DNA from: an uncultured Erysipelotrichaceae bacterium
GTDB lineage: Bacteria; Bacillota_I; Bacilli_A; RF39; UBA660
Direction of reading: 5' to 3'
Assembly: GCA_902768065.1 (NCBI GenBank)
Contig: CACXJP010000009.1
Location: 1-28,908 of the forward strand
DNA: 28,908 nucleotides
Made by a program: the position numbers and the translations under genes. Below are positions 16,156 through 28,908 of this stretch, one piece after another. The notes under the pieces were generated by a model. It saw nothing but the letters and a program-made list of their open reading frames with translations. It was not told the DNA's origin and ran no database searches. How positions within the stretch are numbered: the first letter of the stretch is position 1; every line of letters begins with the position of its first letter.

Positions 16156-16793
16156 TGGAAAAAGAACAAAACAAAAATAAAAAAAGTAGAACTTCTACCA
16201 CATCAAAAAAAAATACAACTAAGAAAACACAACCTAAAAAAATAACTAATAAAAAGACAACCAAAGTATCAACAAAAAAAACAGTAACAAAAAAAGAACC
16301 AATAGAACAACAAAACCAAACAACAGCAAGCAATAAGATTAGTTACTTATATCTTGCCTTTGTAGCACTTCTAGCAATTGTTGTGTTTCTAGGAGTAAAA
16401 GTATATCAAACATCTAAAATAAAAAGGGTGGAAGAAGCAAATGTTGTTGTTCCATTATTAAAGAAGGATTCATCATATAATATGAGTATAAATCTTGAAG
16501 AACTAAAAAAGAATAAGGAATACTCAATAAAGATATCTAATTTTAGACAAAATACAGTTAATCAAGAAGAAGTAGATTATCAAATTTTAGTATCAAATGA
16601 AAGCAAAGCAATAATAAAAGTAACAAAAGATCAAGATGAGAATAATCTAATAAAGAATCAAGAATCAACAAGAATAGAAGGGGTATCTTTAAAAGCAAAA
16701 GAAAAAAACTATTCTATATATCATTTTAGTGTTATAGAAAACAAAGATAAAATAAAGTCAAATGATAAGATTGATGTCACAATAAAAAGTTGA
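16155..16793 (+). CDS. Membrane protein with Lys/Thr-rich cytoplasmic tail
   Basis: 212 residues. The first 60 are almost only Lys, Thr, Ser, Gln and Asn (for example KKNTTKKTQPKKITNKKTTK), strongly positive and probably disordered. A single helix at about 63-82 follows, then an extracytoplasmic domain of about 125 residues with strand-rich patterns (EYSIKISNFRQ, VDYQILVSNESKAIIKVTK). The positive tail should stay in the cytoplasm and could bind membrane lipid, DNA or RNA. The protein family is not recognised. AAGGAGAT precedes the start, which overlaps the deaminase stop by one base. Confidence 0.68.
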   Translation: MEKEQNKNKKSRTSTTSKKNTTKKTQPKKITNKKTTKVSTKKTVTKKEPIEQQNQTTASNKISYLYLAFVALLAIVVFLGVKVYQTSKIKRVEEANVVVPLLKKDSSYNMSINLEELKKNKEYSIKISNFRQNTVNQEEVDYQILVSNESKAIIKVTKDQDENNLIKNQESTRIEGVSLKAKEKNYSIYHFSVIENKDKIKSNDKIDVTIKS

Positions 16794-16824
16794 TAAAACA
16801 TTAATCTTAAAATTGACTTTTTTT
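16784..16824 (+). terminator. Terminator after the deaminase operon
   Basis: AAAAAGTTGAT (16784-16794) pairs with ATTGACTTTTT (16812-16822) as 11 pairs with two G-U wobbles, followed by T residues. The stem covers the stop codon of the preceding gene and its 3' arm carries the next -35 box. Confidence 0.6.
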
Positions 16825-16841
16825 ATTGTGAATGATAAAAT
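16813..16841 (+). promoter_or_regulatory. Promoter for the DUF1292/giant protein pair
   Basis: TTGACT (16813-16818) and TAAAAT (16836-16841) are 17 bp apart. TTGACT is part of the preceding terminator's 3' arm. A second, weaker pair (TTGTGA 16826, TATAGG 16849) is also possible. Confidence 0.6.
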
Positions 16842-16880
16842 TAAATAGTATAGGACAATATAGAGGATGGAGGGAAAAAG

Positions 16881-17159
16881 ATGGACTTTGAACTAGATTT
16901 AGACAACGAAAAAATCCAAGTGGAAAAAGATGGTAAAATGGTAGAATGTGATGTTCTTTTTACATTTGATAGTGAAGATACTATGAAATCATATATCGGG
17001 TATACTGATCATAGTATTGCTGAAAATGGTAGAAAAAATATCTATGTATCTGCTTATAATCCATTTAATCCTGAAGATAAATTAGAAGATATCACCGATG
17101 AAGCTGAATTAGAAATGGTAAATGATGTTTTAATAAAGATCGACGAAGAAAGCGTATAA
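16881..17159 (+). CDS. DUF1292 family protein (YrzB-like)
   Basis: 92 residues, small and acidic, with the strand-rich core of DUF1292: ECDVLFTFDSEDTMKSYIGYTD, then KNIYVSAYNP and a C-terminal helix ending EMVNDVLIKIDEE. In Bacilli DUF1292 genes usually lie in the yrrK-yrzB cluster near alaS and mltG; here it precedes a giant coiled-coil gene by 17 bp. The function is unknown. GGATGGAGGG provides a strong ribosome site for ATG 16881. Confidence 0.85.
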   Translation: MDFELDLDNEKIQVEKDGKMVECDVLFTFDSEDTMKSYIGYTDHSIAENGRKNIYVSAYNPFNPEDKLEDITDEAELEMVNDVLIKIDEESV

Positions 17160-17176
17160 TTAAGGTGGTGAAGAAG

Positions 17177-20100
17177 ATGAGTGAAAATAAAATAGAAAAT
17201 TCTTATAGTAGCCAAATGAATGATGATTTAAAAAAATATATGGAAAGCATTAATAATATAGAACCAGCAAATGATAATTATAATCTTAATTCATTTGAAA
17301 AAGAGGTAAATGAGCTAGATAAGAAATATAGCATCGATAATTACAATGTTAGAAAAGTACAAAGTGATTTAATAGAAGAAATTATCTCAGCTATCACAAG
17401 ATACCTTGATATAAGCAAAGTAATAGAAGACTACGTTGAAGCAATAAATAAAGAATATGCAGAACTCCAAGCCGTTGTAGAGAAAGAAGCAAAAGAATTG
17501 GATGATGTAGCACTTTCTGAAGAAGAAATCGGAAAAATTAGAGATGATTATCTAAGCAGAAAGATTACAAAGAGCGAAGCAATAGGTAAGCTAAGAAAAA
17601 ATATTGAAGAAGTTAGAAAACAAATTCAAGAATTAAGAGAACAAATAGATCAAGAAAAAAGAGAACTTCAATTTGCTTCAATTGCCGGAATTACGAGAGA
17701 AGAATGTCAGAAATTATTTTCTGAAGAATCAATGAGAGAAATAATTGAAACAGTTTTATCAATAAAAAATACTACAGATTTAGCAGCAACAAGATCTACA
17801 ATTGCTAAAATGATAGCAAAAGCAGAAAAGAAAAATCCACTAGATAATGTTCAAATTTTATCAAGCAATGATGAAAAAGTTGAACAGCAAGAGCCATCTA
17901 GACCAATTAAGATTGCAGAAGACTCTCTAGGAAATATAACAATAAATATTACTATTAGTAGAGAACCAGTTAAGGTAGCAGGTAAAGCTCAAACACCAGA
18001 AAATCCTGGTAAAGCACCTGCAGATATGATAAATAAAAATGAAGAAAATAAGGCGGGAAATGATATTATGGCCAAAGAAGAATTAGAAGAAAATTGGAAA
18101 TTTACAGACAAAGACGGTAAAGATGTTACCAATGAGGTGAAAGTACAAAAGAGCGAAGAAAAACCAAAGAAAAAGAAAACATCAAATGATGCGTTTGGTG
18201 TATATAAAAGATACTCAAATGATTTTGATAAAATATCAGATGAAATAGCAGATATAGAAAAGCAACTTGAGGCAAGTGACGAAAAAGATGAACAATTACT
18301 AAAGTTACTAGAAAAAAAGAAAGCAAAAAAAGAAGAATTACTTGCTAAAATGAAAGCAAAATTACTTGAAGCTCGTGAATTACTTGAAGAAGAAAAGGCA
18401 ACTTTATCTAGAGAAGAAATTAATAGAAGACACGTTGGAAAAGATCCGCTAGGTAAGATGAAACTAATTAATGATGCTCTAGAACCACAACATGGAACTG
18501 TAGAAGGGGACATTACAACATATGCCCTAAGAGGATCAAATGGACTTGCTGATGCATTTACAAGAGCATCTGCAAAGAAAGATGGACAAATAAATGGGAG
18601 CTCATTTAGAAATATGGAACCAGATCCAGGTTTAGAAAATACAACAGGTGGATCTTCAGGAGAAGGTGGAGATGGAGACGATACTGGAACTGGAGATAAT
18701 GGAGATGTTACAATAGATGATACTCCAAGATTACCATCTGGAGAACCTCGTATAGCAATACCAGCATACGCAGAAAGTGCACATGAACATGATGGTGATG
18801 AACCAGGAAATAACGAAGAGGTAGAAGACAAACCTGAAGAAAGAGGATTTAGAGATAGAGTTACAATCTTTAGAGACCTTGATAACGATAAATTATATGT
18901 TAGAAAAGCAGCATTTACAAGATTCTTTGGTTTAGAACAAAATATTGAACAAGTAAGAATTAATGGAGCTCTTTGTTATGAAATAACTGAAGAAGAAGCT
19001 AATTATCTAGAAAGCAATCAAGATAATGAACTATCTCCATATTTCATTCAATATATTGAAGTACAATTAGGAAAGAAAAAGACACTAACACCAACAGGAG
19101 GAAGACCTGGTGGAAATGGAAATAATGGCAACAATGGAAATGGTGATGAGCCATATGGAAATGAGCAAAGACCAGGTCCAAATCCACCACATCCAACAGG
19201 TGAAAATGGAAGTAATGGCAACAATGGAAACGGTGATGAGCCATATGGAAATGAACAAAGGCCAGGACCAAACCTACCACATCCAACAGGCGGAAATGGA
19301 AATAATGGTGGTAATGATGGTGGAGACAACGGAAATAATGGTAACAACGGAAATGGTGATGAACCATTAGGAAATGAGCAAAGACCAGGACCAAACCCAC
19401 CACATCCAACAGGCGGAAATGGAAATAATGGTGGTAATGATGATGGAGACAACGGAAATAATGGCAACAATGGAAATGGTGATGAGCCATATGGAAATGA
19501 GCAAAGACCAGGACCAAATCCACCACATCCAACAGGAGGAACAGGAAACAACGGAAATGGTGATGAACATGGAGACGATGATGGAAACGATAATCAAGAC
19601 GAAGATGATAAAGATAACGACGATGAAAGAGGTTTAAAGGATAGAGTTACAATCTTCAGAGACCTAGATAATAATGGAAAACTTTACATTAGAAAAGCAG
19701 CATTTACAAGATTCTTCGGATTAGAACAAAATATAGAAGAAGTAAGAATAGATGGAGCATTATGTTATGCAATAACAGAAGACGAAGAAAAATACTTACT
19801 AGATAATCAAGATAATGAAATTTCACCATATTTTGTAGTATATAAAGATGTTCATCTAGGAAAGAAAAAACCACCAGTAGAAGAAGAAACAGTAGTAATA
19901 TTCAAAGCAGTAGATGATAATGATCAACTATATGCAACAAAAGAAGTACATGATAAATTTGGATTAGTAACTGAAGGAGATCCAATAGAAATTCAAGGAA
20001 AGCAATGCTATAAAGTATCTCCAGAAAAAAATAAAATTATCAATGACAAAGCTCATCAAAGTGAAAATCCAAAAATAAATGTTATATACAAGCCAGTATA

Positions 20101-21937
20101 TATTAAGAAAAAACAAGAACAACCAAAAGTTGAAATACATTATCAAGAAGTAATTAGAAAATTAACTAAGGATCTTGATATAAAAGCAAAAGATGGAAAA
20201 AGATATAGAGCAAGTAATATTAAAGTGGCTCAATCATTTAAAGATGAATTAAAGTCTGGAAATTATTTATATAATATTCTTCACTTTGCACCAGCAGTTG
20301 TAAAAGCAGGAATTACATTCTTTAGAAGAGTAGCATCTAAAATACTATTAACTAAGAGAGGTAGAGATGTAACTAAAGAAATAAATGCAAGACTAAATGG
20401 CGAATCAGAAAATAAAGAGTGCAACTTAACTGATGAGGATTTAGAAGTACTATGGCAACATTATAAAGGAAGAAATCTTCGTTCAGATATGAACAATCAA
20501 ATTAATCCAATTATCTTAGCAAAATTAAGAGAATATGGATTAAGAAAAGTTGAAGCATTAAATAATGATATTAAACAACATTATTTAGCAGTAATTGCAG
20601 CAACAGATGAAATCGAAAAACTTAAAGAAGAAATAGCAAATACAAAAAATGAAAAGAAAAAAGCAGAATTACAAAACAAATTAAGAGAATTATATAAATT
20701 TGCTGCAGAAAGCGTAAGAATAATTGAAGATAGAAGAAAACAAGCAGATGACTTATTATCAAATGGTGTTCATGGAATAGAAGAAGACTTTAAAGCAGTT
20801 GAGTCTAAGATGAACTACATTGGTTTAAGATTTAGTAAGCAGAATGATTTCGATAATGAATTACAAGATAGACTTGCAGATGCAGGAAAGAGAATCAATA
20901 CTGCAAAAGCATATGGAGATGATGAAGGACTTGTAAAAGCATTTATCGATTATGAAAAAATTTACTATGAAGAAACAGAAGTTAAGAACAGTATTGTTGG
21001 TAAAAGAAGTACAGGAAACAAATGGTATCAACCAATAGCTGAAGCAATGGATTACAGAGATGACCCATTTATTAGAGATTTATTTACAACAATTGCAACA
21101 GTTTCAGCTGCAGTTAGTATTGCAAATGGACTTATAACTCATATACAAAAAGATCAACAATTCCAACAACAAGTAAATAATGACATAAATTCAACAAATG
21201 CAGCTAATCAACAATATCATAATTCAGTACAACATGAAGTACAAAATATTCAAGCACAACGTCAAGCAGAAATTCAAGGTTTACAAGGACAAATGAATAA
21301 GGATGTTAGAGATGCATTTAATACAGGAGAAAGAGGAATACTTGATAAATCTGACTGGAGTTTTAATGGATCATATCGTGCAGATGATGCTATCCTTCAT
21401 GCTCAAGCTCAAAGTTTATATGAATCAGCACAAAATCAAATTCAAAGTGTAGTTTCTCAATTACAATCTGGAGCAATAACTGAGACTCAAGCAATTGAAA
21501 TGTTAGCAAAAGCAGAAGCTAACTTAAGCACAACAGTTAACAATGCATTACAACCATTATATAATGCTTCTAAGGCATATGCTCAAGGACATACATTTGC
21601 ATATGATGCAACACTTGTTCCATCTGACTGGTTTGCTAACCATCCAAATGCGTTTGTAGATTTTGGAAATGCGATTGTAGCGGTTAACCAAAGTGCTGAT
21701 GCATTATCATTACTAAGTCCATCATTTATGCAAACAATTGGATCACTTCCTTCTGATTTAGCAACAACATTAGCAGCAGGAATTTCTTCACTAGCACTTG
21801 TTAAGAATGTTCAAACAACAATGAAGAATAAAACAAGTGGTAAGAACATTGATCATAGAAGAGATGAATTAGGAGAAATGTTTGGAGAACATGTTGTTAA
21901 TAGAGGAGAAGAAGAGCAAAGATCACATACAAAATAA
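17177..21937 (+). CDS. Giant repeat and coiled-coil protein, unknown function
   Basis: 1586 residues from ATG 17177 (AAGGTGGTG at the right distance; the in-frame GTGs at 17165 and 17168 are the ribosome site itself). There is no signal peptide. In order: coiled-coil (about 75-165, EEVRKQIQELREQIDQEKREL); acidic linker; second coiled-coil (about 345-410); Gly/Asp-rich linker; an 80-residue module (about 555-635, ERGFRDRVTIFRDLDNDKLY); Gly/Asn/Pro-rich repeats (about 645-788); a second copy of the module (about 817-893); a divergent third (about 905-975, ETVVIFKAVDDNDQLY); then a helical C-terminal half. That half has hydrophobic patches at about 1029-1058 and 1296-1325, and a Gln-rich coil after 1325. 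It is probably cytoplasmic, perhaps a scaffold that touches the membrane. No known family is recognised. Confidence 0.85.
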   Translation: MSENKIENSYSSQMNDDLKKYMESINNIEPANDNYNLNSFEKEVNELDKKYSIDNYNVRKVQSDLIEEIISAITRYLDISKVIEDYVEAINKEYAELQAVVEKEAKELDDVALSEEEIGKIRDDYLSRKITKSEAIGKLRKNIEEVRKQIQELREQIDQEKRELQFASIAGITREECQKLFSEESMREIIETVLSIKNTTDLAATRSTIAKMIAKAEKKNPLDNVQILSSNDEKVEQQEPSRPIKIAEDSLGNITINITISREPVKVAGKAQTPENPGKAPADMINKNEENKAGNDIMAKEELEENWKFTDKDGKDVTNEVKVQKSEEKPKKKKTSNDAFGVYKRYSNDFDKISDEIADIEKQLEASDEKDEQLLKLLEKKKAKKEELLAKMKAKLLEARELLEEEKATLSREEINRRHVGKDPLGKMKLINDALEPQHGTVEGDITTYALRGSNGLADAFTRASAKKDGQINGSSFRNMEPDPGLENTTGGSSGEGGDGDDTGTGDNGDVTIDDTPRLPSGEPRIAIPAYAESAHEHDGDEPGNNEEVEDKPEERGFRDRVTIFRDLDNDKLYVRKAAFTRFFGLEQNIEQVRINGALCYEITEEEANYLESNQDNELSPYFIQYIEVQLGKKKTLTPTGGRPGGNGNNGNNGNGDEPYGNEQRPGPNPPHPTGENGSNGNNGNGDEPYGNEQRPGPNLPHPTGGNGNNGGNDGGDNGNNGNNGNGDEPLGNEQRPGPNPPHPTGGNGNNGGNDDGDNGNNGNNGNGDEPYGNEQRPGPNPPHPTGGTGNNGNGDEHGDDDGNDNQDEDDKDNDDERGLKDRVTIFRDLDNNGKLYIRKAAFTRFFGLEQNIEEVRIDGALCYAITEDEEKYLLDNQDNEISPYFVVYKDVHLGKKKPPVEEETVVIFKAVDDNDQLYATKEVHDKFGLVTEGDPIEIQGKQCYKVSPEKNKIINDKAHQSENPKINVIYKPVYIKKKQEQPKVEIHYQEVIRKLTKDLDIKAKDGKRYRASNIKVAQSFKDELKSGNYLYNILHFAPAVVKAGITFFRRVASKILLTKRGRDVTKEINARLNGESENKECNLTDEDLEVLWQHYKGRNLRSDMNNQINPIILAKLREYGLRKVEALNNDIKQHYLAVIAATDEIEKLKEEIANTKNEKKKAELQNKLRELYKFAAESVRIIEDRRKQADDLLSNGVHGIEEDFKAVESKMNYIGLRFSKQNDFDNELQDRLADAGKRINTAKAYGDDEGLVKAFIDYEKIYYEETEVKNSIVGKRSTGNKWYQPIAEAMDYRDDPFIRDLFTTIATVSAAVSIANGLITHIQKDQQFQQQVNNDINSTNAANQQYHNSVQHEVQNIQAQRQAEIQGLQGQMNKDVRDAFNTGERGILDKSDWSFNGSYRADDAILHAQAQSLYESAQNQIQSVVSQLQSGAITETQAIEMLAKAEANLSTTVNNALQPLYNASKAYAQGHTFAYDATLVPSDWFANHPNAFVDFGNAIVAVNQSADALSLLSPSFMQTIGSLPSDLATTLAAGISSLALVKNVQTTMKNKTSGKNIDHRRDELGEMFGEHVVNRGEEEQRSHTK
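19110..19540 (+). repeat. In-frame Gly/Asn/Pro repeat array
   Basis: Four imperfect copies encode NGNNGNGDEPYGNEQRPGPN followed by PPHPTG. Reference positions (TGGTGATGA) at 19141, 19231, 19354 and 19477 show spacings of 90, 123 and 123 bp, with a decayed fifth copy about 81 bp on. The last two units have an extra GNNGGNDGGDN block. Confidence 0.9.
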
Positions 21938-21967
21938 AAAGATGTAGTATAAAACTACATTTTTTTT
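21936..21967 (+). terminator. Terminator after the giant gene
   Basis: ATGTAGT (21942-21948) pairs with ACTACAT (21954-21960) around a 5-nt loop. Flanking A and T runs extend the stem and supply the T-tract (21961-21967). It begins at the stop codon. Confidence 0.85.
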
Positions 21968-21976
21968 AAAAAGCAC

Positions 21977-22005
21977 TTGTATTTATTAAAAAAATATGAT
22001 ATATG
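21977..22005 (+). promoter_or_regulatory. Promoter of the ABC exporter operon
   Basis: TTGTAT (21977-21982) and an extended -10, TG-A-TATATG (21997-22005), are 17 bp apart. Transcription would start near 22012, leaving an 88-nt leader before ATG 22100. Confidence 0.5.
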
Positions 22006-22020
22006 TATGAATGACGTTTT

Positions 22021-22075
22021 TGCAATTTAGCTAGATATCATATGGGTCACCATAGTGATATGTGGCTTTTTTGCG
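22021..22075 (+). promoter_or_regulatory. Long leader hairpin, possible attenuator
   Basis: ATATCA-TATGG (22035-22045) pairs with CCATA-TGATAT (22050-22061) with a single bulged G and a GTCA loop. Beyond a G-G mismatch, AGCTA (22029-22033) pairs with TGGCT (22063-22067), and TGCAA with TTGCG outside that. Six T follow the inner stem (22067-22072). It sits between promoter and first gene, so it could terminate the transcript early or release a small RNA. Confidence 0.55.
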
Positions 22076-22099
22076 TTGGGAAGGAGTGTGAAATTAAAA

Positions 22100-23080
22100 A
22101 TGTCATTCATCGAGGTTAGACAGATATCTAAAACCTTTAAACTTGCTAAAAAGAAGAGTGGATTAAAGGAAGCTTTTAAATCTTTTTTCAAAAGAGAATA
22201 TCAGTATATAGAAGCTGTATCAGATATTTCATTTTCTATCGAAAAAGGAGAAATCATAGGTTATATAGGACCCAATGGTGCAGGAAAATCTACAACAATT
22301 AAAATACTTAGTGGAATTCTAAATCCAGATAAAGGAGAATGTATAATTGATGGTATGACTCCATGGAAAGATAGAAAGAAATTCGTCAAAAAAATTGGTG
22401 TTGTCTTTGGACAAAGATCTCAATTATGGTGGGACATACCAACAGAAGATACATTTCTATTATTAAAAGATATTTATGATATTTCAGATGAAGAATATCA
22501 AAAGAATAAAGAAGATTTAATAGAAAGACTAAATTTAAAAGATATCATAAACATTCCGGTCAGACAATTAAGTCTTGGTCAAAGAATGCGCTGTGAGATT
22601 GCGGCATCACTACTACATAATCCAGAAATATTATTTCTAGATGAACCAACAATTGGTTTAGATGCAGTATCAAAACAACTGGTTCGTGACTTTATAAAAA
22701 GACTTAATAAAGAGAAACAAACAACAATAATTTTAACAAGTCATGATACCTCAGATATTACTGCTTTAGCGAAAAGAATAATATTAATTGGTAAAGGTAA
22801 AGTATTATATGATGGTAATCTAAGAGTATTAAAAAACAAATATGATACTGAAAAAAATGTATCAATATCAACAAAAGAAAAATTAGAACTAAAATGTAAA
22901 GGTCTAAAAAGTAAAAAGAAAACAAAAGAAGGATATGATCTAGTAATTGATACAAAAGAAATAAGTATTTCTGAATTACTTAATAAAATATCAAAAAAGA
23001 TAACTATTGAAGATATTGATATTGAAAATGAAGGTATTGATAACTTAATAGTAAAATTATATGAGGATTATAAGATTTGA
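22100..23080 (+). CDS. ABC-2-type exporter ATP-binding subunit
   Basis: 326 residues from ATG 22100. Walker A is GPNGAGKS (57-64), the Q-loop glutamine is in VFGQRSQLWW (101-110), the signature is LSLGQ (157-161), Walker B is ILFLDEP (177-183), and the switch histidine is in LTSHD (about 212-216). The VFGQRSQLWWDIP segment and the C-terminal extension (about 235-326) fit the subgroup that pairs with two PF06182-type (DUF990, 'viologen exporter'-type) permeases. An upstream in-frame GTG at 22055 lies in the leader hairpin, so I reject it. AAGGAG at 22081 is 13 nt from the ATG, slightly long. The stop overlaps the next start. Confidence 0.88.
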   Translation: MSFIEVRQISKTFKLAKKKSGLKEAFKSFFKREYQYIEAVSDISFSIEKGEIIGYIGPNGAGKSTTIKILSGILNPDKGECIIDGMTPWKDRKKFVKKIGVVFGQRSQLWWDIPTEDTFLLLKDIYDISDEEYQKNKEDLIERLNLKDIINIPVRQLSLGQRMRCEIAASLLHNPEILFLDEPTIGLDAVSKQLVRDFIKRLNKEKQTTIILTSHDTSDITALAKRIILIGKGKVLYDGNLRVLKNKYDTEKNVSISTKEKLELKCKGLKSKKKTKEGYDLVIDTKEISISELLNKISKKITIEDIDIENEGIDNLIVKLYEDYKI

Positions 23081-23880
23081 AAGTTTATTTAACTTATTTT
23101 AAATTAAAATTTATTACTGGATTACAATATAGAGCAGCAGCATATGCAGGTATATCAACACAATTCTTTTTTGGTTTTGTATTTATAATGGTATATTTTG
23201 CCTTCTATAAATCAGGAAGTGGTCATCTGCCAATGGAAATGAGTGCTCTTGCTTCATATCTTTGGCTTAACCAAGCATTTTTTGCCCTAGTAACAAACTT
23301 TTATAAGGATAACGAAATATATAATATGATTAAAACAGGTAATATAAGTTATGAACTTATAAGACCCAAAAATCTCTTTTATATGTGGTACTTTAAAATA
23401 TTAGGTCAAAGATATTCCAATGTATTATTAAGAAGTATGCCAATAATAGTAATAACATTATTATTACCAAAACCAATAGGTTTATCTTTACCGGTATCAT
23501 TAAATGCTTTTATATTATCAATAGTATCACTATTTATAGGATCATTATTAATAATAGCTTTATCAACATTATATCCAATAATAACTTTATTTACTATGAA
23601 TGAAAAAGGAGTAGTAAATATCTTTGTAGTAATTGCCGATTTATTATCTGGACTAGTAGTCCCAATTCCTTTTTTTCCACCATTCTTAAAACTAATATCA
23701 AAATTCTTACCGTTCCAATATGTAAGTGATTTACCATTTAGAATATATGTTGGAAATATAAATATACAAAATGGTTTAATAGGTTTAGGTATCCAAGTAA
23801 TATGGATATTTATAATCATTATAATTGGTTATAAATTAATGAATTATAATTTGAAAAGAGTAGTTGTACAAGGAGGATAA
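23077..23880 (+). CDS. ABC-2-type exporter permease 1
   Basis: 267 residues with about six membrane helices. It starts at TTG 23077, overlapping the ATPase stop (TTGA), with GAGGA nine bases upstream; no ATG fits. The pattern YLWLNQAFFALVTNFYKDNEIYNMIKTGNISYELIRPKN is typical of PF06182-like permeases, where a cytoplasmic amphipathic loop follows the second helix. A late VPIPFFPPFLKLISKFLPFQYVSDLPFRIY stretch also fits that family. It works with the ATPase and the next permease to export a substrate I cannot name. Confidence 0.85.
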   Translation: MKVYLTYFKLKFITGLQYRAAAYAGISTQFFFGFVFIMVYFAFYKSGSGHLPMEMSALASYLWLNQAFFALVTNFYKDNEIYNMIKTGNISYELIRPKNLFYMWYFKILGQRYSNVLLRSMPIIVITLLLPKPIGLSLPVSLNAFILSIVSLFIGSLLIIALSTLYPIITLFTMNEKGVVNIFVVIADLLSGLVVPIPFFPPFLKLISKFLPFQYVSDLPFRIYVGNINIQNGLIGLGIQVIWIFIIIIIGYKLMNYNLKRVVVQGG

Positions 23881-24657
23881 ATGAAATGTTATTTGAGAGC
23901 TCTATCACTTCACTTAAAAAGTGAATTAGAGTATAGAACCTCATTTATTTTCTCCTTTATCTCCCAAATAGTAATATTTTTCTCTTACTACTTTGTAATA
24001 TTATCATTATTTTCAAGATTTAATAATATTAAAGGATTTACGTTATATGAAGTATTATTATGTTTTGCAATAATACAATTTGGATATTCATTTAACGAAG
24101 TATTTGCAAGAGGATTAGATAAATTTGATGACTTAATAATACAAGGAGGTTTTGATAGATTATTATTAAGACCAAAAAGTATTATTATTCAAGTCCTTTA
24201 TAATGAAAGTGATTTTGTAAAAACATCTAGATTATTTCATGCATTAATAATCTTAGTAATAGCATTGACTCATTTAAATATAGAATGGAATTTATTGAAG
24301 GTTATTTGCTTATTATTAATGATGTTATCAGCAACAATAATATTCTTTAGTATTTTCTTACTGGCAGCAAGCTACTGTTTTATAACAGTACAAGGCCTAG
24401 AAGTAAGAAATGTCTTCACAGATGGTGGTAAACATATGGCTCAATATCCAATAGGAATATTTAGTAAAGGATTTATCTATTTCTTTACATTTATAATTCC
24501 ATATGCTTTCGTTAACTATTATCCATTATTATATGTATTAGGAAAGAAAAATAATATTCTATATGCATTCTCTCCATTGTTATTATTTATCTATGTAATA
24601 CCATGTATTATAGTATTCTATTTAGGAGTAAAGAGATATTCAAGTGTAGGTTCATAA
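23881..24657 (+). CDS. ABC-2-type exporter permease 2
   Basis: 258 residues, about six helices, same family as the preceding permease and directly adjoining it (TAA then ATG) with CAAGGAGGATAA as ribosome site. Matching family features are IIQFGYSFNEVFARGLDKFDDLIIQGGFDRLLLRPKS, the loop equivalent to 'GNISYELIRPKN' in permease 1, and HMAQYPIGIFSKGFIYFFTFIIPYAFVNYYP near the end. The two permeases would form the heterodimeric channel of the exporter. Confidence 0.87.
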   Translation: MKCYLRALSLHLKSELEYRTSFIFSFISQIVIFFSYYFVILSLFSRFNNIKGFTLYEVLLCFAIIQFGYSFNEVFARGLDKFDDLIIQGGFDRLLLRPKSIIIQVLYNESDFVKTSRLFHALIILVIALTHLNIEWNLLKVICLLLMMLSATIIFFSIFLLAASYCFITVQGLEVRNVFTDGGKHMAQYPIGIFSKGFIYFFTFIIPYAFVNYYPLLYVLGKKNNILYAFSPLLLFIYVIPCIIVFYLGVKRYSSVGS

Positions 24658-24659
24658 AG

Positions 24660-24685
24660 AAAAGACAGTATAAACTGTCTTTTTT
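24660..24685. terminator. Terminator of the exporter operon (possibly bidirectional)
   Basis: AAAAGACAGT (24660-24669) and ACTGTCTTTT (24674-24683) form a perfect stem around ATAA, with a T-run on the plus strand. On the minus strand it also lies just behind the convergent gene's stop, with a shorter T-run. Confidence 0.9.
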
Positions 24686-24691
24686 CTATAA

Positions 24692-25207
24692 TTAAATGCC
24701 ATATGTTTTTGTTATTTGATCAATAAACATATAACTTTTTGGAGGATAATAAGTAAGATGAGTAAATACAATATAGCTAATTAGCACTAAGGAGATTCCC
24801 AATTCTTTTTGATTAGGAATTTCTTTTTTATTTAAAATAATATAACTAATAATGTTAGAAAAAATATAAGTAATAAGCATAATAAATATAGCTATAAAAA
24901 AACTATGAGGTATAAATAAATCTATAAGTAAGTATATAACCAAATAAAATATTATTCCTAAAATAGAAGAAATAGGTATACTAATAAAAAAATTATTAGT
25001 ATCATACCTCTTTTTTTTATAAATAAAATATTCAATTATACTAGATAATAATATACTGGTATAAATAATTTTCATATGTTCCCATATACTTTCATTTACT
25101 GGAGCTATTATACTTGTAAAAAAAGAAGGAAATATATCATATATAAAATGAATAGGAAAAGAAAGTAAAAATGCCAATATAATTATAAAAATCTTTATTT
25201 TTTTCAT
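24692..25207 (-). CDS. DUF6512-like membrane protein
   Basis: 171 residues with about five membrane helices. The segment APVNESIWEHMKI (about 35-47) after the first helix is the hallmark of DUF6512 proteins, found widely in Bacillota with no known role. A late pair of helices includes ISYIVFTHLTYYPPK. The start ATG 25207 has no clear ribosome site upstream (the region is A/T only), which is unusual in this window; a short leader from a TATAAT-like -10 is possible. It is convergent with the ABC operon and divergent from the LysR gene. Confidence 0.75.
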   Translation of the reverse strand: MKKIKIFIIILAFLLSFPIHFIYDIFPSFFTSIIAPVNESIWEHMKIIYTSILLSSIIEYFIYKKKRYDTNNFFISIPISSILGIIFYLVIYLLIDLFIPHSFFIAIFIMLITYIFSNIISYIILNKKEIPNQKELGISLVLISYIVFTHLTYYPPKSYMFIDQITKTYGI

Positions 25208-25251
25208 ACTAAACTATATTAATTATATATAAAATTTATTCATAAATATCA

Positions 25252-25277
25252 TTTATATAAATTGACTTTTATATAAA
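25252..25277 (+). promoter_or_regulatory. Twin palindromic operator around the LysR promoter -35 box
   Basis: TTTATATAAA occurs at 25252-25261 and 25268-25277, each a perfect palindrome, 16 bp centre to centre. The TTGACT -35 box (25262-25267) sits exactly between them. This spacing is suited to a regulator that blocks RNA polymerase, possibly LysR itself. Confidence 0.55.
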
Positions 25278-25290
25278 ACTATAATATAAT
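25262..25290 (+). promoter_or_regulatory. Promoter of the LysR/radical-SAM/NADAR operon
   Basis: TTGACT (25262-25267) and TATAAT (25285-25290) are 17 bp apart, nearly perfect consensus. The start would be near 25297, 13 nt before ATG 25310 with AGGGGAT between. Confidence 0.85.
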
Positions 25291-25309
25291 ATGTCGCGAG
25301 GGGATCAGT

Positions 25310-26203
25310 ATGAATACGGATTATAATTTATATAAGATATTTCTTTATTTATATGAAGAAAAAAGTATCTCGAAAACTGCAAATAAATTGTATGTATCAC
25401 AACCTGCAATCAGTTACAGTTTAAAGGAATTAGAAAATCAATTAGGATATACTTTATTTTATAGAAATAGTAAAGGAATTGAGCCAACTTTAGAAGCTAA
25501 AGAATTATATTCATATATTTCTACAGCATTTAATATATTACAAGATGCTGAAGAACATATAAAGAATTTAAATAATTTAAATATAGGTTGTATAAGAATA
25601 GGTACACCATCACATATTGGAGTATTCTACTTATCAAACTATATAGCTGATTTTAGAAAGATATATCCTGGAATAAAATTCGAAATAGTATGTAAATCCA
25701 CTTCTGATATGGTAGAAATGTTGGAAATGAGAAACTTAGATTTAATAGTAGATACACTACCTATTAATAGTAAGAGAGAAGTAACAAAGGTAACTTTATC
25801 TAAATTACATAACTGTTTTGCTTACAATAAAAATATTATGAAAGATGTTAATATTGAAAAAGTAAGCGATTTAAAGAATTATCCATTAATTTTACCAAGT
25901 GCAACATCTTCAATTAGATTGAAACTTGATGAATATATGGAATCTCAAAATACTAAGTTAATGCCAATTATAGAATCATGGACAACAGAAATGATGATTG
26001 AAATGGTTAGAAAAGGTGTTGGTATTGGATATTTTGTAGAAAGTGTAATTGATACTCAAGATGATAAAGATAACTTTGAAGTAATAAGATTTAATGATGA
26101 TTTACCAGCAGTAGATGTGTGCTGTGTTTATATAAATGACTTTTTAACAACAGCTACAAGAAAATTTGTAGAATTAATAACAAGTAATAAAGTAGGGGAT
26201 TAG
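25310..26203 (+). CDS. LysR-family transcriptional regulator
   Basis: 297 residues, the usual LysR size. The winged HTH covers about 5-62 with ISKTANKLYVSQPAISYSLKELENQLG, then TLFYRNSKGIEPTLEAKELYSY. A linker helix follows, and the effector-binding domain (about 90-290) starts with IRIGTPSHIGVFYLSNYIADFRKIYP. Members usually bind a small metabolite and regulate their own and neighbouring genes. It opens the operon that carries the radical-SAM-like gene (4-bp gap) and the NADAR-DHH fusion, so its signal is probably a substrate or product of those proteins. The ligand is unknown. Confidence 0.92.
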   Translation: MNTDYNLYKIFLYLYEEKSISKTANKLYVSQPAISYSLKELENQLGYTLFYRNSKGIEPTLEAKELYSYISTAFNILQDAEEHIKNLNNLNIGCIRIGTPSHIGVFYLSNYIADFRKIYPGIKFEIVCKSTSDMVEMLEMRNLDLIVDTLPINSKREVTKVTLSKLHNCFAYNKNIMKDVNIEKVSDLKNYPLILPSATSSIRLKLDEYMESQNTKLMPIIESWTTEMMIEMVRKGVGIGYFVESVIDTQDDKDNFEVIRFNDDLPAVDVCCVYINDFLTTATRKFVELITSNKVGD

Positions 26204-26207
26204 TATT

Positions 26208-27836
26208 ATGGAATATTTATTAAGAGATGAATTAGAAATAAGTGAAGAAGATTTAGAAATAAGAAAAAGACTATATGATGTATTTATGGATTTACCAGAA
26301 AACTTTGTATCAAAAATGAGACATTTACAACCACAAGTAGGATGTTTTAATAATTGTAGTTTCTGTAGTAAATTTTCTATATGTAAAAGTGAATACTGGT
26401 CACTAAGATCATTAAGAAATATAATTAGTGCCTTAAAGTATACATCAAATAATTATACAGCAGATGACTTGTTACTAGCATGGGATAGAAAAGAACATAG
26501 AATAGGTGTTATATTCCCATATTTAAATAATGATACTGCTGCATATCCATATTTATATGAATATATTGATTTATGTTATAAAGAATTAGGTGTCAGAACA
26601 AGAATATCTACAGTAGGGTATTCAAGACATAACAAAGTACTAAATGATATGCACAAAAAAATCGCATCAAGTGATTTATTCTATGCCTTGGGTGGTGTAA
26701 GATTATCAATAAGTCAGTATGGAAGAGTTTGGGAAGAACCTAGTAAAAAGAATTCACTAGAAGATTATAGTGAAGATATTGCAAACTTCTTAAGTATTTA
26801 TAAACCTTATTATGATAAATTTGGATCAGGCTCTAGAAAAATGTGTTGTGAAATAAGATTTAACCCATTAGTAGAAAACAGCAAAGTATTAACATTTACT
26901 CATAATAATAAATATGTAATTGCAACAAGTAATTATTTATATATTTCAAAAGAAAAAAATATAGAGTTTGAAGAATCATTTATAAAAGATCCATATGTAC
27001 ACTCTCTAGATTTAACAACAGAAGGAATAAAATTCTTAGAATATAATCTACCATTTAAAGTAGATAGCAAAGATGAATTAATTGAGTATATTGAAAATAA
27101 TAATCTAAAGGCAGAAAAAGAAGTAGAAATATATATGTTTACTAATAAAGATGGAGTGTATTATTCAATTGATCCAAAACTAACTCCAGAAGGTAATTAT
27201 GGAATAAATATATATCCAGAAACAGAAATCAGAGAAAAATCAGGTTATATTATTACTGAAAGATTCTTTATAAATGCTTTATATAATTTTAAAAAATCAA
27301 AAGGACACAGTCTAAGAGATAAATTAACAAATACAACATATGATGATGTAGAAGAAGTAATTAATATCTTAAAAGAATATTCAACATACTATAAAGAAAA
27401 TAGCAAATTAGAAAAAAGTAATTATATTTTAGAACATATAATCCCAGTAATTGAAGTATATGTTAAAGCATTAAGAAAAGCAAATTATTCATCTGATGTT
27501 TTCTTTGATAAGAAATTTACAATTGACACAGGAATTATATGTAATCTAGGAAGAGCAATAAATTTATTTAAAGGCTTGACTAAATTTATAAACGAACCAT
27601 TAACTCCAACACATGAGAGAAACTATGGAAGACACTGTTCTACAATGAAACAAGAAAACTATGTTTGGTTATTAGGATGTGATTTCCATGATAATATCTT
27701 GATTGAAAAACTAGATTTATTTAATACAGCCTCAACAGAAGGACAAGTATCAATTAGAAAAAGAATTAATATTGAAGGTTTCAACAAGAAAATAAGTGAA
27801 GATGAAGAATTCTTATATCCAGGAGCAAAAGAATAA
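26208..27836 (+). CDS. Radical-SAM-like protein of unrecognised family
   Basis: 542 residues, soluble. VGCFNNCSFCS (44-54) has the CX3CX2C arrangement (C46, C50, C53) that holds the 4Fe-4S cluster of radical SAM enzymes, preceded by QPQ; an extra cysteine, C59, follows. Strand-like patterns further on (IGVIFPYLNN, VRTRISTVGYS, FYALGGVRLSISQYG) could be the barrel core and SAM-binding strands; the CCEIRFNP segment (about 217-224) may belong to it as well. The C-terminal 300 residues are an unfamiliar domain with NYGRHCSTMKQENYVWLLGC near the end, containing two more cysteines. The start is 4 bp after lysR, and its stop overlaps the NADAR-DHH start by one base. The substrate is unknown. Confidence 0.65.
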   Translation: MEYLLRDELEISEEDLEIRKRLYDVFMDLPENFVSKMRHLQPQVGCFNNCSFCSKFSICKSEYWSLRSLRNIISALKYTSNNYTADDLLLAWDRKEHRIGVIFPYLNNDTAAYPYLYEYIDLCYKELGVRTRISTVGYSRHNKVLNDMHKKIASSDLFYALGGVRLSISQYGRVWEEPSKKNSLEDYSEDIANFLSIYKPYYDKFGSGSRKMCCEIRFNPLVENSKVLTFTHNNKYVIATSNYLYISKEKNIEFEESFIKDPYVHSLDLTTEGIKFLEYNLPFKVDSKDELIEYIENNNLKAEKEVEIYMFTNKDGVYYSIDPKLTPEGNYGINIYPETEIREKSGYIITERFFINALYNFKKSKGHSLRDKLTNTTYDDVEEVINILKEYSTYYKENSKLEKSNYILEHIIPVIEVYVKALRKANYSSDVFFDKKFTIDTGIICNLGRAINLFKGLTKFINEPLTPTHERNYGRHCSTMKQENYVWLLGCDFHDNILIEKLDLFNTASTEGQVSIRKRINIEGFNKKISEDEEFLYPGAKE

Positions 27837-28908
27837 TGTCAGTTGATTTTTATAAAGAACATGGTCCGCTAGGATACTTAGCAAATTATTCTAATCATGG
27901 TTTTATAAAAGATGGAGTATATTACAAAACTGCAGAGCATTACTATCAAGCAAGTAAATTTGCTGATGAAAAAATAAGACAAAAAATAATTAATAGTCCC
28001 ACTCCAAAAGAAGCATCTATAATTGGGAGAGACAGAAATAATATTAGAAAAAAAGATTGGTCACATCAAAAATTAGATGAAATGTATATGGCAGTTTATC
28101 TAAAATTTAGTCAAAATAAAGATATAAGAAGTAAACTTATAGAAACAAGAAATAAAGAAATAAGAGAAATGACAACTAAAGAATCATATTGGGGAATTGG
28201 ACCAAACTTAGATGGTATAAATCATATTGGAAAAATTCTAATGCGAGTAAGAAAAAAAATAAAAAAAGAATTATTAAAAGAAATGATAAATAATTGTAAA
28301 AATAAAAAAATATATGTAATTGGTCATCATAAACCTGATGCTGATTCTATAATATCTGCTTATATTTTAACAAATATTTTAAAAAGTATGGGAATAGATG
28401 CCGTATTCTCAGTAAGAGATAATAATATAATTGATAATGAACTAATAAGAGATTACTTAAAAGAAGATTATGAAGTAATAGATGATTATCATGATAAAGA
28501 TTTTATTTTAGTAGACCATAATAATTTAGATAGTATTCCAAAAGAAAATGTTATAGGTGCAATTGATCATCATAGAATAACAGGAGAAGTAGAAGATTTA
28601 ATAGAAATAGAATATGCATCTACTGCATTATTAATATATGATTTATTTAAAGATAAATATAAATTCAGTGAAAAAGAAAAAGAACTTATTGCTTTATCAG
28701 TATTAACAGATACTGAGTATCTTACAAGTTCAAGATTTACAGAAGAAGATAAAAAACTATTTGAAGAATTAAAGATTAATTTAGATATTGAAACACTAAA
28801 AAAGAAATATTTTAAAACAACAAATTTTACAAATAGAATAAATGATAATTTACATGAAGACTATAAAGAATATGATTATAATAATCAAAGAATAAATAGA
28901 AGTTTAAT
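27836..28908 (+). CDS. NADAR (YbiA-like) domain fused to a DHH phosphoesterase, partial
   Basis: The frame is open from ATG 27836 to the window edge (357 codons). Residues 1-145 match NADAR/YbiA proteins, N-glycosidases known to act on riboflavin-pathway intermediates and on ADP-ribosylated guanosine: VDFYKEHGPLGYLANYS, YKTAEHYYQASKF (30-42), GRDRN (64-68) and YWGIGPNLDGINHIGKILM (118-136). Residues from about 158 match the DHH domain of family II inorganic pyrophosphatases: GHHKPDADS (163-171), VDHN (226-229), AIDHHR (242-247) and LTDTEYL (290-296). These keep the family's metal ligands (H164, D168, D170, D227, one of H245/H246, D292). Any C-terminal DHHA2 domain lies beyond the edge. It overlaps the radical-SAM-like stop (TAATG). 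Confidence 0.85.
   Translation, partial: MSVDFYKEHGPLGYLANYSNHGFIKDGVYYKTAEHYYQASKFADEKIRQKIINSPTPKEASIIGRDRNNIRKKDWSHQKLDEMYMAVYLKFSQNKDIRSKLIETRNKEIREMTTKESYWGIGPNLDGINHIGKILMRVRKKIKKELLKEMINNCKNKKIYVIGHHKPDADSIISAYILTNILKSMGIDAVFSVRDNNIIDNELIRDYLKEDYEVIDDYHDKDFILVDHNNLDSIPKENVIGAIDHHRITGEVEDLIEIEYASTALLIYDLFKDKYKFSEKEKELIALSVLTDTEYLTSSRFTEEDKKLFEELKINLDIETLKKKYFKTTNFTNRINDNLHEDYKEYDYNNQRINRSL

Follow-up and report, generated by a model that had tools for sequence, protein, structure and literature searches.

What does a bacterium do with a single polypeptide that joins an N-glycosidase of the NADAR type to a DHH metal phosphoesterase? The question is raised by the last gene of a 28,908-nucleotide stretch of DNA from an uncultured Erysipelotrichaceae bacterium (assembly GCA_902768065.1, contig CACXJP010000009.1, positions 1 to 28,908), which we analysed as a whole and call the window. 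A preliminary description, made from the letters of the window, had seen in this gene a one-chain, two-step enzyme for the clearance of damaged nucleotides or ADP-ribose, with a pyrophosphatase-like second domain and riboflavin intermediates among the possible substrates. Our analysis confirms that the NADAR-DHH fusion is real, widespread and conserved. It also places the fusion in a larger unit, composed of a LysR-type regulator, a radical-SAM-like protein and NADAR, in which DHH is the exchangeable part. This unit was outside the preliminary description, as was the C-terminus of the protein, which lies beyond the window and where the pyrophosphatase signature is absent. What stood of the earlier reading is the conserved, bifunctional-looking fusion; the pyrophosphatase and riboflavin roles did not.

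A conserved fusion of two domains

Both domains are recognised by Pfam in a single frame, as had been proposed: NADAR at residues 5-143 (PF08719, E 2.1e-32; 113.1 bits for a cut-off of 35.1) and DHH at residues 158-283 (PF01368, E 3.7e-14; 53.5 bits for a cut-off of 28.1). The nearest complete protein, P0001, has 427 amino acids and is 99% identical to the window fusion. A protein search with the fusion gave 295 relatives, and the counts given below concern the 120 homologues listed among these. The concern that homologues might always be two separate genes can be set aside, because 115 of the 120 have both Pfam domains in one frame of at least 400 amino acids. The remaining five (P0004, P0072, P0074, P0080 and P0108) have 278-345 amino acids, and two of them carry DHH only. 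We looked for a frameshift or assembly error between the domains and found none; internal stops are absent from the fused frame in all 11 fusion genomes. In an AlphaFold2 model from 49 aligned fusions (mean predicted local distance difference test score, pLDDT, 92.9; predicted template modelling score, pTM, 0.86), a single helix (residues 130-152) runs from NADAR into DHH. The fusion was found in uncultured Bacilli.

A phage, plasmid or viral origin was considered and rejected. No stretch in the phage (50,697 records) or plasmid (72,556 records) collections covers 80% of the query. Viral contigs contain 85 relatives, and nearly all of the 80 that were kept match the NADAR part alone. Ten match past residue 147; the eight of these that were opened have frames of 147-193 amino acids and lack the DHH motif.

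Two intact active sites and a missing signature

Residue conservation was counted over the 115 listed homologues of at least 400 amino acids. In the NADAR half, E34, K41, R65, E111 and W119 are unchanged in 115/115. They align to E43, K50, R79, E125 and W133 of the P. nicotianae NADAR (PDB 8bau), whose structure has ADP-ribose bound, with K50 and R79 in contact with the pyrophosphate (available text of PMC11543638). The same text defines the YbiA subfamily by a glutamate on the last strand, instead of Asp or His, and E111 is such a glutamate in 115/115. Relative to other members of this subfamily (E. coli YbiA, PDB 2b3w, and 8bau), NADAR is here fused to DHH and encoded third in an operon, and the equivalents of K75, D86, W89 and R93 differ. 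The NADAR superfamily profile matches 49/49 alignment members. Among more specific profiles, the riboflavin intermediates N-glycosidase of NCBIfam (TIGR02464, cut-off 73.7) scores 112 bits with the window fragment and 111.1 with P0001, the anti-phage NADAR NF053876 scores 76 bits, under its cut-off of 240, and PADLOC PDC-M42C matches the fusion at 9e-17.

The DHH half keeps the six metal ligands that had been read as those of family II pyrophosphatases: H164, D168, D170, D227, H245 and D292 are all unchanged in 115/115. A further invariant residue is R355. Yet the role that was attached to them seems unlikely, because the SRKKQ signature is lost and all 15 genomes carrying the radical-SAM-like gene (see below) own a separate DHHA2 protein. 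R295 and K296 of this signature are described as substrate-binding (available text of PMC11210485). The residues SRK align to T410, S411 and T412 of the fusion, which puts R295 at S411 and K296 at T412. The R295 position is S, and the K296 position T or S, in 113/115 homologues, with gaps in the other two. No R or K was found at the three SRK columns in the 115 rows (1-2 gaps per column); one SRK occurs elsewhere in P0059. The equivalog profile of family II pyrophosphatases, NF003877, gives the complete P0001 83.3 bits for a cut-off of 283, and, with E values up to 1 admitted, DHHA2 is recognised in 4/49 alignment members. In its fold, the DHH half is related to the family II (manganese) pyrophosphatases (PDB 1k23, 1wpp), but its chain is shorter and lacks their C-terminal, pyrophosphate-binding SRKKQ signature. 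As the conserved two-domain protein has both active sites intact, a glycosidase and a metal phosphoesterase in one chain still appears to be the natural reading of the sequence.

Standalone DHH genes had no shared neighbour by eye, and Nudix-like genes lie near some of them. One DHH domain that closely resembles the fused kind has a GNAT-like C-terminal part (L001 3734-5182, 482 amino acids), and its gene belongs to a series labelled, by eye, as HAM1-, Nudix-, MazG-, HAD- and HD-like. A standalone DHH gene (L235 5937-6815, genome G753) is broken into two frames by decay or draft error.

An operon with a radical-SAM-like gene

The fusion comes third in its operon, after the LysR and radical-SAM-like genes. 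Its ATG overlaps the stop of the radical-SAM-like gene by one base, and the same overlap was observed in 7 of the 13 loci measured, the window counted. The radical-SAM-like protein has 372 relatives, and the same number was obtained when a wider alignment was used as the search profile; none of the 120 listed carries a Pfam label. The match to Pfam Radical_SAM (PF04055) is weak, the cysteines C46, C50 and C53 of its C-x3-C-x2-C motif are unchanged in 43/43, and the top fold matches on a second look are radical-SAM enzymes. Foldseek with the model of the protein gave no match below 1e-3, and a sequence search of the PDB no relevant match. In one genome (G752, L199 1761-3384) the gene is broken into two frames, again by decay or draft error.

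We identified 15 different genomes carrying the radical-SAM-like gene, by profile in order, family and genus draws, and read all their neighbourhoods. The gene is present in 3/288 genomes of the order, 5/243 of the family, 10/39 of one genus and 3/15 of another. It is immediately preceded by LysR in 15/15 carriers and directly followed by NADAR in 14, where the latter is fused to DHH in 11 genomes and stands alone in two (G002 and G067). In the last, G207, it shares one frame of 728 amino acids with the radical-SAM-like protein (L177 1255-3441). In the lone carrier without NADAR, G733, a search with the fusion yielded nothing at E up to 1e-3. Its radical-SAM-like gene is followed by a second LysR-like, a Nudix and a guanylate-kinase-like gene (L198 3514-5804).

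The two genes also co-occur. In the genus with ten carriers, nine of these have the fusion or a close NADAR (59-77% identity), against none of the 29 non-carriers (Fisher 5e-8), several of which have NADARs of only 33-37% identity. Among the 288 order genomes, the only NADARs with at least 53% identity are in the three carriers. For 27 of the 120 listed fusions, the longest contig has exactly the same length as that of a radical-SAM-like entry, against 0.7 expected from shifted lists. The full-length fusion was absent from 288 and 241 order genomes and from 395 class genomes (overlapping even draws); the 11 fusion genomes came via the radical-SAM-like profile in the family and genus draws, and seven were also found directly. 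The stable unit is LysR - radical-SAM-like - NADAR, and DHH is an exchangeable part of it.

Loci without the DHH domain

The three loci with a DHH-less NADAR (G002, G067 and G207) all have CYTH-like and thymidylate-kinase-like genes downstream, with an aminotransferase between in G002. These genes are downstream of none of the 11 fused loci, one of which (G752) is on a contig that stops about 100 bases past the fusion. The CYTH-like gene was searched genome-wide, and matches were strong in all three DHH-less genomes (with a second, weak one in G207), the 11 fusion genomes giving one weak match (G745, E 2e-5, 30% identity). The thymidylate-kinase-like gene was judged from the loci alone. The mutual exclusion of the CYTH-like gene and the DHH fusion has a Fisher value of 0.003, with G733 omitted and kinship uncorrected. 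The CYTH label itself scores under the cut-offs. The E-x-E-x-K pattern of CYTH proteins is missing from the G067 and G002 proteins and, in G207, occurs only far from the N-terminus. The distribution of these genes shows exchange between DHH and CYTH-like plus kinase, not equal chemistry.

A single clade of G002, G067 and G207 was rejected in the radical-SAM tree (p-AU of the approximately unbiased test, 0.016, in a tree where long branches meet and of which an earlier version had already been seen), and in the NADAR tree G002 and G067 group together with weak support (84/80). From these two trees we claim that the DHH/CYTH switch involved at least two changes of state.

A candidate nucleotide-processing pathway and its alternatives

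The sharing of an operon by the fusion and the radical-SAM-like gene suggests a small pathway for the processing of nucleotides: a nucleotide-like compound would be acted on by the radical-SAM-like protein, while NADAR would cleave an N-glycosidic bond and DHH would cleave a phosphate bond. We give this reading about an even chance. Under it, the LysR-regulated accessory operon would handle a nucleotide or nucleotide-like compound, with the committed step presumably made by the radical-SAM-like protein. NADAR would hydrolyse the N-glycosidic bond to a ribose bearing a 5'-phosphate or pyrophosphate, a target suggested by its intact YbiA-type site and by the K and R for phosphate binding that this site keeps. 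The DHH fused to it, a putative two-metal phosphoesterase of pyrophosphatase ancestry, would then remove or split the phosphate part. Where NADAR comes without DHH, the CYTH-like protein and the thymidylate-kinase-like kinase are the candidate phosphate-handling partner, so that NADAR loci would always own one. More tentatively, the whole may be a new system: an undescribed radical-SAM family acting on a nucleotide or derivative, with a dedicated LysR, deglycosylation and dephosphorylation by NADAR-DHH, and DHH interchangeable with CYTH-like plus kinase. This interchangeability would then suggest that what is produced or recycled here is a metabolite derived from a nucleotide and outside described pathways.

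The fusion might instead be a stand-alone clearance enzyme, where NADAR separates a damaged or modified base from its ADP-ribose or ribose phosphate, DHH cuts the pyrophosphate or phosphate so released, and the neighbours are merely co-regulated. This would fit the retention of both active sites in 115/115 and of the equivalents of K50 and R79, which contact pyrophosphate in the known NADAR complex, and a related idea was published for a phosphatase-like DUF4326 fused to viral NADAR (available text of PMC9503650). We find it rather unlikely, because NADAR is bound more tightly to the radical-SAM-like gene than to DHH, may share its frame with that protein instead of DHH, and the pyrophosphate-binding residues of DHH are gone. 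A role as antitoxin, reversing the ADP-ribosylation of guanine, or in defence, is less probable still. YbiA-type NADARs can serve as antitoxins and reverse guanosine ADP-ribosylation (YarT-YbiA, available text of PMC11125620), the DarT1-NADAR and YarT-YbiA pairs have the same catalytic domain as the fusion, and the matches to NF053876, below cut-off, and PDC-M42C would fit a defence role. However, no ADP-ribosyltransferase was recognised among the listed neighbours of the operon (mostly by eye, with no genome-wide search), and DarT-partner NADARs have Asp where the fusion family has Glu (same text). Moreover, an ABC permease gene of the window's kind is among the upstream genes listed for 7/15 genomes and for the window, which makes this a repeated chromosomal place.

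The tight coupling of an N-glycosidase to a radical-SAM-like gene might also reflect house-cleaning. 5'-deoxyadenosine inhibits radical-SAM enzymes, and NADAR could destroy it, or a side product, with DHH as an auxiliary. But K41 and R65, which align to residues that bind phosphate, are invariant, and 5'-deoxyadenosine is free of phosphate; we judge this explanation a little less probable than the previous one. An overflow enzyme of the YbiA/RibX type, destroying reactive early riboflavin intermediates, would account for TIGR02464 scores above cut-off. Yet GTP cyclohydrolase II, from which these intermediates arise, was detected in only 1 of 15 carriers (G632), a set that does not include the window's own genome, and in 10 of 14 controls. 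Incompleteness of drafts is possible, yet it explains 14 misses poorly. This scarcity makes a riboflavin role very improbable, and the corresponding branch of the preliminary description finds no support. Finally, the window frame is truncated at the edge and the loci of stated source are metagenome-assembled, which might raise the suspicion of an assembly or annotation artefact. The open frames in 115 cluster representatives and 11 genomes already refute it, leaving it a negligible probability.

Relation to known systems

Among the hits listed, the open literature, which leaves out most subscription papers (including the one reported to have named NADAR), gave no description of the NADAR-DHH pair, in line with the earlier statement that it was not known as an enzyme, nor of NADAR with radical SAM, nor of the operon. 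NADAR and DHH are treated as separate phage enzymes in the available text of PMC7824862, and one phage genome paper, in its available part, lists NADAR and radical SAM apart. The nearest precedent is the NADAR-DUF4326 fusion of DNA viruses, where NADAR is also chained to a domain proposed for ribose-linked phosphates. DUF4326 is however rhodanese-phosphatase-like, not DHH, these fusions are viral, and the available text of PMC9503650 contains neither 'radical SAM' nor 'DHH'.

Both NADAR and DHH are domains of known kinds, but the radical-SAM-like family and the operon may be more. Another comparison is with viperin and, in vertebrates, with the RSAD2-CMPK2 gene pair. The radical-SAM-like protein of the window has no PADLOC match, viperin is tied with other radical-SAM folds, and no kinase of that pair's type is seen near the fused loci. 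Few jobs are known for NADARs outside toxin-antitoxin pairs and riboflavin overflow. Here, NADAR is tied to defined partners by the operon, by co-occurrence and by joining in two ways, to DHH or, in a single genome, to the radical-SAM-like protein, in hosts mostly without GTP cyclohydrolase II. The set is small and open to testing, and so suited to the search for a new NADAR substrate and to the assignment of an unnamed radical-SAM-like family.

Other features of the window

The coordinates of the operon and of the parts of the fusion are collected in Table 1. The promoter upstream of LysR is only suggestive, as the region has 27 promoter-like sites, fewer than shuffled sequences (mean 40.9).

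Table 1. Positions in the window of the operon genes and of the domains and motifs of the fusion
Feature	Position	Strand	Details
Candidate operon promoter	25262..25290	+	TTGACT-17-TATAAT, 11/12 match, just 5' of LysR start
LysR-type regulator, operon gene 1	25310..26203	+	HTH_1 1.4e-16, LysR_substrate 1.3e-24
Radical-SAM-like protein	26208..27836	+	542 amino acids, C46-x3-C50-x2-C53, unnamed family
NADAR-DHH frame	27836..28908 (window end)	+	ATG start; 357 amino acids readable; truncated by window edge
NADAR (YbiA-type) domain, residues 1-145	27836..28270	+	Pfam, conservation
Bridging helix from NADAR to DHH, residues 130-152	28223..28291	+	AlphaFold2 model
DHH domain and beginning of C-terminal part, residues 157-357	28304..28906	+	truncated by window edge
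Metal motif GHHKPDAD (H164, D168, D170)	28322..28345	+	115/115
Metal motif VDHN (D227)	28511..28522	+	D227 in 115/115
DHH signature (D244, H245, H246)	28565..28573	+	115/115
Metal ligand D292	28709..28711	+	115/115

An Rfam scan of positions 16700-28908 gave no match at E up to 0.1. Upstream of the operon, positions 17165-21937 encode a protein of 1590 amino acids without Pfam match, whose gene includes a tandem array (19109-19599, periods of 90 and 123 bp) of Gly/Asn/Pro-rich repeats; a relative, by eye, is at the same place in L002. A DUF6512 protein is encoded on the reverse strand (24692-25207), with the ABC transporter genes on one side and the LysR operon on the other, and it is also present there in G740 and G729.
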